Assembly (NCBI GenBank): GCA_038817485.1
Contig: JAWAZL010000007.1
Span: 1-53,778, forward strand
Reading direction: 5' to 3'
DNA from: Nitrososphaerota archaeon
GTDB taxonomy: Archaea > Thermoproteota > Nitrososphaeria_A > Caldarchaeales > JAVZCJ01
DNA: 53,778 nt
Made by a program: the position numbers and the translations under genes. Of the stretch, positions 19,397-24,824 are shown in pieces (the first letter of the stretch is position 1; every line of letters begins with the position of its first letter). Under the pieces are notes generated by a model, which saw only the letters and a program-made list of their open reading frames with translations, ran no database searches and had not been told where the DNA came from.

Positions 19397-20716
19397 ATGG
19401 GAGTAATAGAATATTTAGAAAAAGTCCCCATTTCGAATTTCCATTACATTTTACTACTTTTAGGATGTTTAATTTATGGATTTACTGCAATGAATACTAT
19501 GCTAATTAGTGCAGCTCTTCCTGCAATAATTTCAGAATGGTCTTTAGACTCTGTAACAGCTGGTTTTTTATTAAGTAGTGGATATATTGGAATGTTCATA
19601 GGAGCACTTTCATGTGGCTTCTTAGCAGATGCTATAGGTAGAAAAAAGGCACTTATATTTACAATTTTTTTAATGAGTATTTTTACTGGATTATGTTCAA
19701 TTGCTAACGAGATTTCATCCATGTTTATTTTAAGATTTTTAGCTGGAATAGGTTTAGGAGGTACATTACCTCAACCGGGTGTATATATATCAGAATATGT
19801 TCCAGCTAAGTATAGAGGGAAATTTGTAGGATTCGTTGAAACTTCATGGGTTTTTGGAGCTTTATTAGCTATAGCTTTTCCATTTCTATTAATTCCATTA
19901 TATGGTTGGCGTTTAACATTTTTAATTGCTTTTATTCCACTTCTTTTAATAATATTAGTTATATTTTTTACTCCTGAATCTTTAAGATATTTAGAATTAA
20001 AAAACAAATATGAGGAAATTTTTAAAATTCTTAAAAAGCATAAATTAATATCTGAAGAGATAAATAAAGAAAAAATTTTTTATAAATTAAAAGATACTTC
20101 TAAGAAAACTTCTTTTAAAGAAATCTTTTCTTTAAAATATAGAAAAAGAACACTTCTCTTATGGATACTTTGGGCAGTGCTAGTATATACTTATCATGGA
20201 ATATTTTTATGGCTTCCCACAATCTATGTTAAAGAATTTGGTTTTGAAATTGTTAAATCACTTTATTGGACATTAATAGTTACTTTAATACAAGTTCCAG
20301 GATATTTTAGTGCAACTTTCCTTTTAGATATTATTGGAAGAAAAAAAGTTTTAGCTATATATCTTGGTTTAGCTGGAATCTCATGTCTTTTACTTAGCAT
20401 AGCAAAAGATGTAAATGCTATACTTTTATGGAGTTGTTTTATATCATTTTTCAATTTAGGTGCATGGGCTGGATTATACACTTATACTCCTGAATTATAT
20501 CCAACTAGAATAAGAGGTACTGGTTCTGGAGCTGCAGCAAGTATTGGAAGACTTGCAGGAATTTTAGCTCCTACATTAACAGGCTTCTTATATTCTATTG
20601 GAAAACTACTATTTCCATTTATCGTATTTACTTTAGCGCATTTAATAGCTTCTTTAAGTGTTATATTTTTAGGAATTGAGACAAAAGGAAAAATTTTAGA
20701 GGAAATTTCAGAATAA
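19397..20716 (+). CDS. MFS transporter, sugar/organic-acid porter type
   Basis: 439-residue, twelve-helix major facilitator. The loop between helices 2 and 3 has GFLADAIGRKKAL (the GxLaDrxGRkk signature), with a matching LLDIIGRKKVLA in the second half. PELYPTRIRGTGSG near residue 365 is the signature that groups it with sugar and aromatic-acid porters. GIETKGKxLEEIS near the end is also typical of that group. The start ATG at 19397 is preceded by GAGG about a dozen bases upstream and by a TTTAAATA element near 19360. The substrate is not predictable and neighbours give no hint. Confidence 0.9.
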   Translation: MGVIEYLEKVPISNFHYILLLLGCLIYGFTAMNTMLISAALPAIISEWSLDSVTAGFLLSSGYIGMFIGALSCGFLADAIGRKKALIFTIFLMSIFTGLCSIANEISSMFILRFLAGIGLGGTLPQPGVYISEYVPAKYRGKFVGFVETSWVFGALLAIAFPFLLIPLYGWRLTFLIAFIPLLLIILVIFFTPESLRYLELKNKYEEIFKILKKHKLISEEINKEKIFYKLKDTSKKTSFKEIFSLKYRKRTLLLWILWAVLVYTYHGIFLWLPTIYVKEFGFEIVKSLYWTLIVTLIQVPGYFSATFLLDIIGRKKVLAIYLGLAGISCLLLSIAKDVNAILLWSCFISFFNLGAWAGLYTYTPELYPTRIRGTGSGAAASIGRLAGILAPTLTGFLYSIGKLLFPFIVFTLAHLIASLSVIFLGIETKGKILEEISE

Positions 20717-20869
20717 ATGGAATAATTTTTAATTTTTTTAAATTAAAAATTGTTATTTATCGAAAATCTAGTAAATAATGGCCATTTTTTTAATTTTAGA
20801 AGAAGAAAGAAAGACAAAATAAACAAATTTTTAATTAAAAGCTTAAATTTTTGATTTTTTTAGAAAAAT

Positions 20870-20938
20870 ATGCTAAAAAAGATAGTAAGGAGGTTGAGAA
20901 TCAAGAAAATAATTAGTTTAAATAAAAATGGTGATTAA
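20870..20938 (+). CDS. Possible 22-residue basic leader peptide ahead of the polyamine operon
   Basis: ATG at 20870, TAA at 20936-20938, reading MLKKIVRRLRIKKIISLNKN and GD. A CTTAAATTTTT element about 25 bases upstream would make it the first codon of a leaderless transcript. A GGTGAT lies at its end. The peptide is rich in lysine and arginine. I cannot tell whether it is translated; the case rests only on its position at the expected 5' end of the mRNA. Confidence 0.25.
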   Translation: MLKKIVRRLRIKKIISLNKNGD

Positions 20939-20994
20939 AAATGATTATTTTGGGGATACATATAATCGTGAAAAAACACGAGTATGCCCCTGAG
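20930..20994 (+). promoter_or_regulatory. G+C-rich structured element in the 5' leader of the polyamine operon
   Basis: GGGGATAC (20952-20959) pairs with GTATGCCCC (20982-20990), eight pairs with one bulged G. Inside it CGTG (20967-20970) pairs with CACG (20977-20980) over an A6 loop, leaving ATATAAT as an internal loop. GGTGAT at 20930-20935 and CCTGAGG at 20989-20995 flank the hairpin, resembling the C and D halves of a kink-turn or box C/D element. The structure is striking in such A+T-rich DNA. It starts about 210 bases ahead of the speD-like start. It could be a regulatory RNA, a small box C/D-like RNA, or chance; only the base pairing is observed. Confidence 0.45.
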
Positions 20995-21161
20995 GTATTT
21001 AAAAAATTTCTCTCAAAATTAATAAACTCCTTTCTTTATAAATTCCAAATTGTAAAAATTATTAAAAATTTTTCAGTATATATTTTTTCTTATATTTCTT
21101 ATTTCTTCAAAATGCTGTTATTTTTCTTAAAAAATTTTATAGCATACTTAGGTGATTTTCT

Positions 21162-22484
21162 ATGAAAACAATAAGCTTTAATACACATTTATCAATTTAT
21201 GCAACTTTAACAGGATGTGATCCAAAACTTTTAGAAAATGAAAACTTCATTCTTTCAACTTTAATTTCTTCTATAATTCAAGGAAGAATGAAATTAATTA
21301 AACTTTTTTATAAAAAATTTGAAGATGGGGGAAAAGGAGTTACACTCGTAGCCCTTATTGCAGATTCTCATATAATTGTTAATACTTTTCCAGAAAATTA
21401 CTCTCTTTTACTTGATATTTATAGTTGCACAGGATATCCTATAAATTCTATATATGAATTTATTAAAATGTTTAAACCGAAAAGATTCGAAATTACATTT
21501 TTACCAAGGAATTTAAAAGATGATGTTTTTCAATCAAGAATTATTTTAAGTGAAAATGATGTTGATGAAAAATTAAATGAATGGATGAAAAAAAGAAATT
21601 TACTTCCATTAATTAATACGAATGAGAAATTTTTAATTTTAGTAAATTTAATTGGTTTTATTATTGCAAATGGTTATTTACATAATGATTTAAAATGCTT
21701 CCATGTTTATCATAAAAATAAATACATATTAGAAATTCTAAAGAAAAAAATAAACTTATTAAAAGTAAATGCAATAATAAAACCAAAAATAAATAAAAAA
21801 GGAAATAAAATATTTGAACTTTATGTTAATGATAAAAACTTATGTAAATTGCTTTATATGCTTGGTGCACCAAAAGGAAATGAAAATAATAGAATATTAG
21901 AATTTCCATCATGGTTGAAAAATGAAGAAGAACAAATTAAAGCTATTTTCTTATCACCTTTATTATTAAAAGCATTTGATAATATAAAAAGAATTTATGA
22001 TTTTGAAAATGGAAAAGGTAATTCTCATGATATAATTTTATTAATTAAAAGTTCTTTAAATGAAAAAACAGAAGATTTTGTAAAAAACATAGAAAAAACA
22101 TTAAATGAAATATTTATAAAAACTGATGGAATAATTATTAAGAAATTAGGAAAGAAAGAATATTATGGTATAAGAATAAAACCAACATATGAGAATTTTA
22201 TTAGAATGCAAATTATTACTTCTATTAATAAAATCTTTCCATTATCACTTTTTGAAATAAATATTTCTATGAAACAAAAATCTATGTATAAATTTAATAC
22301 AGAATATTATAAAATAATTAATTTCCTTTTAAAGAATAAAAAAATTTTTATATCAAGCATTTTTAATGATCTTGAAATCCCTTATAATAAAGGTTTAAGA
22401 ATATTAAGATTACTTAAAAAGTATAATATAGTAAAAATAGAAGATAAAAGAATTGTATGTTTAAATTTAGATAAAAGTGAGTGA
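21162..22484 (+). CDS. AdoMet-decarboxylase-like domain fused to a degenerate LAGLIDADG fold and winged helix
   Basis: 440 residues, three parts. Residues 1-122 match class 1 S-adenosylmethionine decarboxylase (SpeD): DSHIIVNTFPE aligns with the processing site ESHxSIHTWPE. Ser69 is the pyruvoyl-serine equivalent and Cys89 the proton donor, but the processing histidine is Asn74, the second serine is Thr61, and Glu before Ser69 is Asp. Residues 155-275 look like a two-motif LAGLIDADG domain: LIGFIIANG (163-171), LYMLGAPKGN (231-240) with EFPSWL, and FLSPLLLKAF (263-272). The catalytic acids are Asn170 and Ala271, so cleavage is not expected. Residues 375-435 form a winged helix (YKIINFLLKNKKIFISS...). 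AGGTGAT precedes the ATG. The stop overlaps speE's upstream region. Either a bifunctional remnant or, as I infer, a ligand-sensing DNA-binding regulator like WhiA in design. Confidence 0.75.
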   Translation: MKTISFNTHLSIYATLTGCDPKLLENENFILSTLISSIIQGRMKLIKLFYKKFEDGGKGVTLVALIADSHIIVNTFPENYSLLLDIYSCTGYPINSIYEFIKMFKPKRFEITFLPRNLKDDVFQSRIILSENDVDEKLNEWMKKRNLLPLINTNEKFLILVNLIGFIIANGYLHNDLKCFHVYHKNKYILEILKKKINLLKVNAIIKPKINKKGNKIFELYVNDKNLCKLLYMLGAPKGNENNRILEFPSWLKNEEEQIKAIFLSPLLLKAFDNIKRIYDFENGKGNSHDIILLIKSSLNEKTEDFVKNIEKTLNEIFIKTDGIIIKKLGKKEYYGIRIKPTYENFIRMQIITSINKIFPLSLFEINISMKQKSMYKFNTEYYKIINFLLKNKKIFISSIFNDLEIPYNKGLRILRLLKKYNIVKIEDKRIVCLNLDKSE

Positions 22485-22509
22485 TAAAATACAATTAAAG
22501 GTGTTGAGA

Positions 22510-23430
22510 ATGGAAGAAAATAAAGAAAGTTGGATATGGTTTATAGAGTGGCAAACACCTGGACTAGCTGTAATGCATAAAATAAAGAATGTTATATATA
22601 GTGGACATACAAAATATCAAAAAGTTGATATTGTTGAAATCGACCCTTTTGGAATTTGTTTAATACTTGATGGAAAAGTTCAGTCTTCTATTATTGATGA
22701 GTATATTTACCATGAATCTTTAGTACATCCAGCACTAATAACTCATCCAAATCCAAAAGAAGTTTTGGTTATAGGTGGAGGAGAAGGTGCAACAATAAGA
22801 GAAGTATTAAAACATGATGTAAAAAAAGTTACGATGGTTGATTTGGATAAAGAAGTTGTAGAATTATGCAAGAAATACCTTCCAGAAATACATAAAAATT
22901 CATTCTTTGATGAAAGAGTAATTCTAGAATTTAATGATGGAAGGGAATTTCTTAAGAAAAGTAGAGAGAAATATTATGATGTAATAATAGTAGATGTAAC
23001 AGATCCTATTGAAGCAGGACCATCACAACTTCTTTATACAAAGGAATTTTATGAATTAGCTAAATCACGCTTAAAAGAAGATGGCTTAATAGTTACTCAA
23101 GCTAGCTCAATATTTTATAGTAAAAATGTTTTTTCAATAATTTTTAATACAATAAGAAATGTTTTTAAAATAGCAAGAGCATATTATGCATGGATTCCAT
23201 CATATAATTCTTGTTGGGGTTTTGTTATTGGTTCAAATGCTTATGATCCATTAGAAATCGATAGTAAAGAATTAAGTATTTTAATAAAAAATAGAATAAA
23301 TGGAAATCTTCGCTTTTATAATGAGAAAATGCATTATGTACTATTTTCCTTACCACCTGAGCTTAAAGATTTTCTTGAAAATGAAGAAAATATATCTACA
23401 GATAATAAACCGCCAATAATGCCTGCATAA
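22510..23430 (+). CDS. speE: Spermidine synthase-family aminopropyltransferase
   Basis: 306-residue polyamine aminopropyltransferase, which moves the aminopropyl group from decarboxylated AdoMet to an amine such as putrescine, spermidine or agmatine. The N-terminal beta hairpin (WFIEWQTPGLAVMHKI) precedes LDGKVQSSIIDEYIYHESL. The Rossmann core has GGGEGATIREVLKH, MVDLDKEVVELCKKYLP, and the active-site DVTDPIEAGPSQLLYTKEFY. I chose the ATG at 22510 with AAGGTG upstream; a GTG at 22477 inside the preceding gene adds 11 non-conserved residues. It follows the SpeD-like fusion and is surely cotranscribed. The acceptor amine cannot be fixed from sequence. Confidence 0.92.
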   Translation: MEENKESWIWFIEWQTPGLAVMHKIKNVIYSGHTKYQKVDIVEIDPFGICLILDGKVQSSIIDEYIYHESLVHPALITHPNPKEVLVIGGGEGATIREVLKHDVKKVTMVDLDKEVVELCKKYLPEIHKNSFFDERVILEFNDGREFLKKSREKYYDVIIVDVTDPIEAGPSQLLYTKEFYELAKSRLKEDGLIVTQASSIFYSKNVFSIIFNTIRNVFKIARAYYAWIPSYNSCWGFVIGSNAYDPLEIDSKELSILIKNRINGNLRFYNEKMHYVLFSLPPELKDFLENEENISTDNKPPIMPA

Positions 23431-23435
23431 TTTTA

Positions 23436-24824
23436 TTAAGAGCTATATTTTAAATATACTTTTTCTATAAAAGAATCTCTTACAGGTTTATAAACTTCAT
23501 TGAAGAAATCTTGTTGATTAAGTAAAATATTTTTTGGAAATTTTTCAAGATATTTTATTGCTGCATTCCAGGCATCATTATATGGTATAATAGGATTTAT
23601 TTTTAAAACTATTTGTTTATCATAATCGATTGGTTTTTGTTCTTCATCCCCTATTTTAAACCAACCATTTTTAGAAAGGTATGCCCCCTCATTCCCTATA
23701 TAAACAAGAGTTTCTTCTTTTTGTTTTAATTGCGTTATTTCTTTTCCTATTTCAATCTTTTTCCTTGAAGGTGGTTTACTTATTCCACGATGCTTAGCCC
23801 ATGCATAAAAAATCGCTCTATTTAAACCAAAAGATTTTGCCTTTTCTAAATCGTTCGTTAAAATAAAGTATCTTGCTGCTTGAAGCAATGCCATTACTTG
23901 AAATCTTCCAAGCTTAGCTTGAATCTTAATTTTTTTAGAATCTTCTTTTCTTTTTTCAGAGCTTCCTATAATGGTTTGAATTCTTCCTTCAGCAGTAGCT
24001 TTAACAAAATAATATCCACCTATCTTTTTTAAAGCTTTTTCGGCTAATTGATCTGCTTCTCCTTCTTCATATATTTTCCAATCTTGATTATGCTTTATAT
24101 TATTTGGATTTGTCCAATCGAGATTAAAATTATATAATTCATTTGGTTTAAAACATATACAACAAATATCTAATTGTCTATGAAGAGAAAGTGGAACTGT
24201 AAAAACTCTTTTAATATCTATTTTATTTTCAAGTTTTAAAATAGATTTATCATCAATTTTTGAAGCTATTTCTAAAAATTTGTCTTTTACTTGACAACAA
24301 ATATATTCAACTATTGAATATGCAATATCTAATGGATTATACTTTTTAAGTATTTCTTTTGAAAAACTTTTTTCATGCAAATGAATATGACATCCTCTTC
24401 CACTCCATTTCAAAAAAACAGATTTATCAATTCCTTCCTTCTCTAATGCATCTAAAATTATTTCTGCAATTTTTATTGTTGTTTTCCAATATTCTGGAGA
24501 ACTATCTATATCCCAAATAGGTGAAGCATAAATAATATTTTCAGGATCTTCTAAATCTTCTTTAGATAATATTTTTGAATAAATATTTATTGAACCATAA
24601 AAAGTTCTTGGTTTTATGAAAAAGAAATTTTTAAAAATTTTATCAATATCTTCATCACTATTAATAGAAAGAGGCTTATTCTCTTTTTTCCAATATCTAA
24701 TAAAAATTCTTTTATCTTCACTTGCCATACCTTCAATAGCAACCCATCTATTTTTACAATAATTAATTATTTCTTTTCTTACAATGGGATTGGAATAAAA
24801 TTTTTTTATATCTTCATAATCCAT
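23436..24824 (-). CDS. Archaeo-eukaryotic primase superfamily protein
   Basis: 462-residue protein with the three primase-polymerase (AEP) motifs: WDIDSSPEYW (DxD-type metal ligands, about residue 105), KWSGRGCHIHLHE (the SxH motif, about 140), and KRVFTVPLSLHRQLDICC (about 209, as in RVPGSLH of PriS-like enzymes). The remaining 220 residues contain lysine-rich helices and no clear zinc stem, and it lacks the close match expected of the replicative PriS. It could be a repair or specialised primase, or a PriS relative in a lineage-specific system. It is convergent with speE with only five bases between stops. There is no helicase or large primase subunit nearby. Confidence 0.75.
   Translation of the reverse strand: MDYEDIKKFYSNPIVRKEIINYCKNRWVAIEGMASEDKRIFIRYWKKENKPLSINSDEDIDKIFKNFFFIKPRTFYGSINIYSKILSKEDLEDPENIIYASPIWDIDSSPEYWKTTIKIAEIILDALEKEGIDKSVFLKWSGRGCHIHLHEKSFSKEILKKYNPLDIAYSIVEYICCQVKDKFLEIASKIDDKSILKLENKIDIKRVFTVPLSLHRQLDICCICFKPNELYNFNLDWTNPNNIKHNQDWKIYEEGEADQLAEKALKKIGGYYFVKATAEGRIQTIIGSSEKRKEDSKKIKIQAKLGRFQVMALLQAARYFILTNDLEKAKSFGLNRAIFYAWAKHRGISKPPSRKKIEIGKEITQLKQKEETLVYIGNEGAYLSKNGWFKIGDEEQKPIDYDKQIVLKINPIIPYNDAWNAAIKYLEKFPKNILLNQQDFFNEVYKPVRDSFIEKVYLKYSS

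Follow-up and report, generated by a model that had tools for sequence, protein, structure and literature searches.

The window (the whole stretch of DNA that we analysed, 53,778 nucleotides from a Nitrososphaerota archaeon) contains a gene that would be the speD of its genus, rebuilt. In its product, a SpeD (AdoMet decarboxylase) domain is prolonged by a LAGLIDADG domain and a predicted winged helix. The reading that we favour, tentatively, is that of a SpeD which may still serve as AdoMet decarboxylase (AdoMetDC) and whose tail has been domesticated and probably binds DNA; we place it ahead of a purely non-catalytic sensor. The gene and its parts are as follows:

21162..22484, forward strand: SpeD-LAGLIDADG-winged-helix fusion, 440 residues (P0001), a single open reading frame (ORF)
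21198..21509, forward strand: SpeD (AdoMet_dc) domain, residues 13-116 (Pfam AdoMet_dc, 63 bits, E 3e-17)
21528..22205, forward strand: LAGLIDADG domain with RtcB-intein kinship, residues about 123-348 (NCBIfam, HHalign, fold and alignment)
22293..22466, forward strand: predicted winged helix, residues 378-435 (AlphaFold2 of residues 355-440 and Foldseek)

The reverse strand of the interval is stop-rich, and an orthologue with 90% identity, likewise ahead of speE, is present in the sole other genome of the genus (G001; the present genome is G000). This three-domain anatomy, with its frame, its coordinates and every residue then cited, is that of the original prediction, made from the sequence alone. 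An AlphaFold2 model of the fusion, built from 40 rows, has a pLDDT mostly around 90 across the SpeD and LAGLIDADG parts. The SpeD domain, already recognized by its Pfam profile, resembles in this model the AdoMetDC of Thermotoga maritima (1tlu/1tmi; TM 0.85 on the target, Foldseek E 2.8e-8), while its score against the NCBIfam equivalog TIGR03330 is 58.5 bits, below the cut-off of 75.65 bits. Residues 155-350 adopt the LAGLIDADG fold, with matches to I-DmoI (TM about 0.68), PI-SceI and WhiA (3hyi), and the stretch 155-275, on which the earlier assignment hung, is folded accordingly. Modelled alone, residues 355-440 give the succession H-E-H-H-E-E (pLDDT about 88), resembling the winged helices of FtsK gamma, Z-alpha and CadC, with every Foldseek E value above 0.01. 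A search of the PDB with the sequence of the tail yielded no convincing match; the winged helix that had been proposed as the end of the protein is a predicted one, assigned at the level of the fold.

WhiA had been put forward as the precedent for such a protein, and it is indeed among the structural matches. The likeness is one of architecture only: WhiA (DUF199) also joins a LAGLIDADG fold to a DNA-binding helix domain. The fusion differs from it in having a winged helix in place of the WhiA HTH, an enzyme fold as partner and kinship with RtcB inteins, and the Pfam domains of WhiA find no match in it up to E 5.

Across the order, speE is immediately preceded by a canonical speD, and the fusion fills that slot in both genomes of the genus, in keeping with the linkage first noted here:

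22477..23430, forward strand: speE, aminopropyltransferase (NCBIfam speE, 279 bits)

The likely real start of speE is the ATG at 22510, also an ATG in G001, and the SpeE motifs GGGEG and DVTDP are intact, as in relatives. The fusion is the only AdoMet_dc gene of the present genome and the only chromosomal one found in G001. The second AdoMet_dc gene of G001 encodes an intact His-type SpeD on a contig of 11.5 kb (G001:C22; L062, L096), which is probably that of a phage, since its neighbours include ORFs that, read by eye, are portal-like, QueE-like and gp46/gp47-like. Both genomes also carry PvlArgDC (G000:C34:4069-4599, L170; G001:C3, L171), which is missing from the two relatives that were checked, where SpeD-type paralogues are found instead. 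With PvlArgDC and SpeE, agmatine supply and aminopropyl transfer are covered, and no candidate other than the fusion was found for the synthesis of decarboxylated AdoMet (dcAdoMet): this metabolite must come from the fusion or be missing. Two neighbours may be mentioned in passing. A protein of 462 residues (23436-24824, reverse strand) adjoins speE in both genomes; it has no Pfam or PDB match, and its WSGRGCHIHL stretch is reminiscent of archaeo-eukaryotic primases. An MFS transporter (19397-20716, forward strand) is intact here and reduced to a C-terminal remnant in G001.

Three active-site positions of the SpeD domain are encoded as follows:

21366..21368, forward strand: codon of Ser69, the pyruvoyl-forming serine position, aligned to Ser63 of T. 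maritima and to relatives
21381..21383, forward strand: codon of Asn74, where T. maritima has the processing histidine (His68)
21426..21428, forward strand: codon of Cys89, at the position of the catalytic Cys83

In an alignment of 78 SpeD rows, the histidine is absent from the fusion, which has Asn in both genomes, and from two divergent homologues, which have Tyr (L094 and L095, with Ala or Gly at the place of Ser55); all other rows keep it. The residue preceding the serine is Glu in all rows but the fusion (Asp68) and one Tyr-type homologue (Gly). Thr at the Ser55 position is, by contrast, common among otherwise canonical SpeDs, so that Thr61 tells nothing of a loss; of the replacements first listed as signs of inactivation, Asn74 and Asp68 are unusual, and Thr61 has to be dropped. 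The glutamate of the motif that begins at Asn74 is kept (NTFPE, where the canonical motif is HTWPE); it varies in a SpeD group resembling the crenarchaeal arginine decarboxylase. The fusion thus has in common with class 1b AdoMetDC (SpeD; T. maritima TM0655, 1tlu/1tmi) the fold, the active-site Ser and Cys, this glutamate and the place ahead of speE, and departs from it by Asn for His, Asp for Glu before the cleavage serine and a C-terminal extension of 320 residues. Because the histidine is believed to take the alpha-proton of the serine during processing (PMC1282579), Asn74 may block pyruvoyl formation.

This is the starting point of the view that the protein is no enzyme at all. It would be a sensor and regulator, with the AdoMet pocket kept and no pyruvoyl made, where the ligand controls a DNA-binding tail made of the LAGLIDADG and winged-helix parts, which regulates the operon. 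The replacement of both the histidine and the scissile glutamate speaks for this, as do a fast stem branch and a dead LAGLIDADG domain combined with a winged helix, as in WhiA. SpeE would then be left without a source of dcAdoMet, even though both it and PvlArgDC have been kept, and we find this account doubtful. The prozyme of trypanosomatids is a dead AdoMetDC paralogue that activates an active one (PMC5201418) and, like the fusion, it lacks the canonical processing residues. No such active paralogue is found on the chromosomes of either genome, the second copy in G001 being that of the phage-like contig.

Bacteria offer a further argument. A motif scan for the His-to-Asn change, run over about 85,000 species genomes, returned 11 matches, six of which are SpeD (five distinct proteins), mostly from metagenome-assembled genomes of marine gammaproteobacteria (L141, L143-L147). 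In all six genomes, the completeness of which is not given, the Asn-type protein is the only SpeD, and in the four that were checked its gene adjoins that of a BpsA-type aminopropyltransferase. These proteins carry the motif ESH..VNTWPE and, as in the case of the fusion, they have Thr at the place of Ser55 and are sole SpeDs; unlike the fusion, they have no tail and keep the scissile Glu. While this stops short of demonstrating activity, Asn appears compatible with a SpeD maintained beside an aminopropyltransferase, and the bacterial proteins possibly form an undescribed subclass of AdoMetDC. A tree joins them to the fusion; we do not trust this grouping, as its support is weak (77/81) and both branches are long, and for the same reason the shared change is likely to be convergent. 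The argument of the original prediction, which went from a missing histidine to a dead enzyme and hence to a regulator, therefore does not follow. It is weakened by the speD slot, by the status of sole chromosomal SpeD, by the retention of PvlArgDC and SpeE and by these bacterial sole SpeDs, and the latter also count against the purely non-catalytic sensor. A regulatory role is possible all the same, and may add to catalysis rather than replace it.

Where the tail comes from can be traced further than its fold. Residues 125-347 match the NCBIfam family of intein-containing RtcB (NF038162, E 3.8e-15), and HHalign against 16 RtcB inteins gives a probability of 99.1 (E 1.5e-18) over 218 columns, at about 30% identity, the homology ending at residue 348. 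Searching 398 genomes of the phylum with residues 119-440, we find matches in 28 genomes outside the genus, all within long ORFs of 789-1002 residues. The three that were checked by Pfam are RtcB proteins with Hint/intein-splicing domains on both sides of the match, and the 20 ORFs that were aligned have the same layout. RtcB inteins are the sole relatives of the LAGLIDADG part found among these 398 genomes. Judged by its sequence, then, the domain (residues 123-348) is homologous to the endonuclease of the archaeal RtcB intein (for example G015:C38), and was captured without the splicing domains: the fusion stands outside RtcB, Pfam finds neither Intein_splicing nor Hint in it, and both catalytic acids are replaced, by Asn170 (21669-21671) and Ala271 (21972-21974). 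We infer that the transfer went from intein to speD and not the reverse, because RtcB inteins are widespread. The RtcB of this genome is itself free of inteins, so that the donor is gone or was elsewhere. Most of the RtcB inteins aligned have the catalytic acids, yet one or both are missing from several, in several lineages (L126, L132, L133, L138), and the domain may already have lost its activity when it was captured.

Searches of 44 genomes across the class and of 398 across the phylum brought no further example of the fusion, so that the known cases are those of the two genomes of this genus. Scanning contigs with patterns of the fusion uncovered no relative, which is weak evidence of absence as the patterns were very strict, and a viral scan returned one ordinary His-type SpeD without tail. 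Fusions of SpeD as such are known: in bacteria, two SpeD units may be joined directly upstream of speE, and the authors of that survey found none in archaea (PMC10407285). They share with the present protein a fused SpeD gene ahead of speE, and differ in that the partner is itself a SpeD. A literature search retrieved no paper on a SpeD-LAGLIDADG protein.

The gene is under purifying selection, strongest on the SpeD part: between the two genomes, the NG86 estimate of dN/dS is 0.09 for SpeD, against 0.24 for the LAGLIDADG part and 0.20 for the winged helix, and 0.19 over the entire gene. The stem branch of the fusion is long, at 2.5 changes per column, and its history is one of rapid change, then constraint. 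That all parts are constrained agrees with the non-catalytic sensor as well. The faster evolution of the tail, taken with the dead endonucleases of several RtcB inteins, could be understood if an active or partly active SpeD had merely acquired a structural or dimerizing extension, the captured intein domain having no role with DNA. A winged helix placed beyond the stretch of intein homology suggests that DNA is bound, and ratios well below 1 also oppose this account, which we consider improbable.

The leader of the operon has features of its own, again compared in the two genomes:

20826..20875, forward strand: promoter-like block upstream of the operon, conserved in the G000/G001 leader alignment
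20941..21165, forward strand: upstream ORF of 74 residues (68 in G001), overlapping the start of the fusion
20946..20996, forward strand: conserved hairpin or inverted repeat, with core ATCGTG-N6-CACGA at 20965-20981

The first 20 residues of the upstream ORF have the score of a SpeD N-terminus; out of 2196 start-anchored peptides, the only ones to stand apart are the phage-like SpeD and this ORF in its two copies. It is thus probably, by its sequence, the stump of a tandem copy of speD. Such a truncated speD-like ORF, together with the long branch, might be taken to mean that the organism is giving up the synthesis of aminopropyl polyamines and that the fusion is disappearing with it. An intact frame, 90% identity and a dN/dS of 0.19 are hardly those of a decaying gene; speE and PvlArgDC have been kept; and we regard this as very improbable. 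The repeat, which sits inside the upstream ORF, occurs once per genome and only in this leader. It folds with z values of -4.1 and -2.6, and its spacer is A6 here and T6 in G001, as if inverted. Conserved as it is, it can be counted in favour of the sensor and of the reading that we favour alike; compared in two genomes, it may be read as an operator, as an RNA hairpin or as coding sequence under constraint. Rfam gives nothing credible in the leader, and a similarity of the leader to the start of speE was rejected, not being kept in G001.

The reading of an AdoMetDC with a tail draws on the domains, their homology, the operon slot, selection, the pathway context, the retained Ser69, Cys89 and glutamate and the bacterial Asn-type SpeDs, and has against it the long branch, the equivalog score below cut-off and the possible block at Asn74. 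The SpeD domain would most likely process itself at Ser69, though possibly at a slow rate, Asn74 standing where the histidine usually is, and the protein would remain the decarboxylase that supplies SpeE. In its C-terminal 300 residues, a dead LAGLIDADG domain taken from an RtcB intein without the splicing domains would be followed by the winged helix, so that a SpeD dimer would present paired DNA-binding modules. These would probably bind the leader of their own operon, coupling expression of speD and speE to occupancy by AdoMet or dcAdoMet. The position of the repeat within the upstream ORF, and the fact that two genomes only can be compared, weigh against autoregulation. It is unlikely, though worth stating, that one protein does both, making dcAdoMet at a histidine-free pyruvoyl-forming site and sensing AdoMet or dcAdoMet while controlling speD and speE through its domesticated LAGLIDADG domain and winged helix.

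What is new here is the RtcB-intein kinship of the LAGLIDADG part, the speD slot with the status of sole chromosomal SpeD, the purifying selection, the pathway context and the bacterial parallels to the change of His to Asn. The fusion extends those of SpeD beyond joined SpeD units and into archaea (compare PMC10407285). An intein endonuclease domain has entered a new host gene, leaving the splicing half behind, and has been kept there under selection, and this capture would be another route to domestication, besides those of HO and WhiA. Finally, a sole SpeD that has Asn at the position of the histidine, together with apparently unrelated bacterial cases, would provide a direct test of the need for this histidine in pyruvoyl formation.
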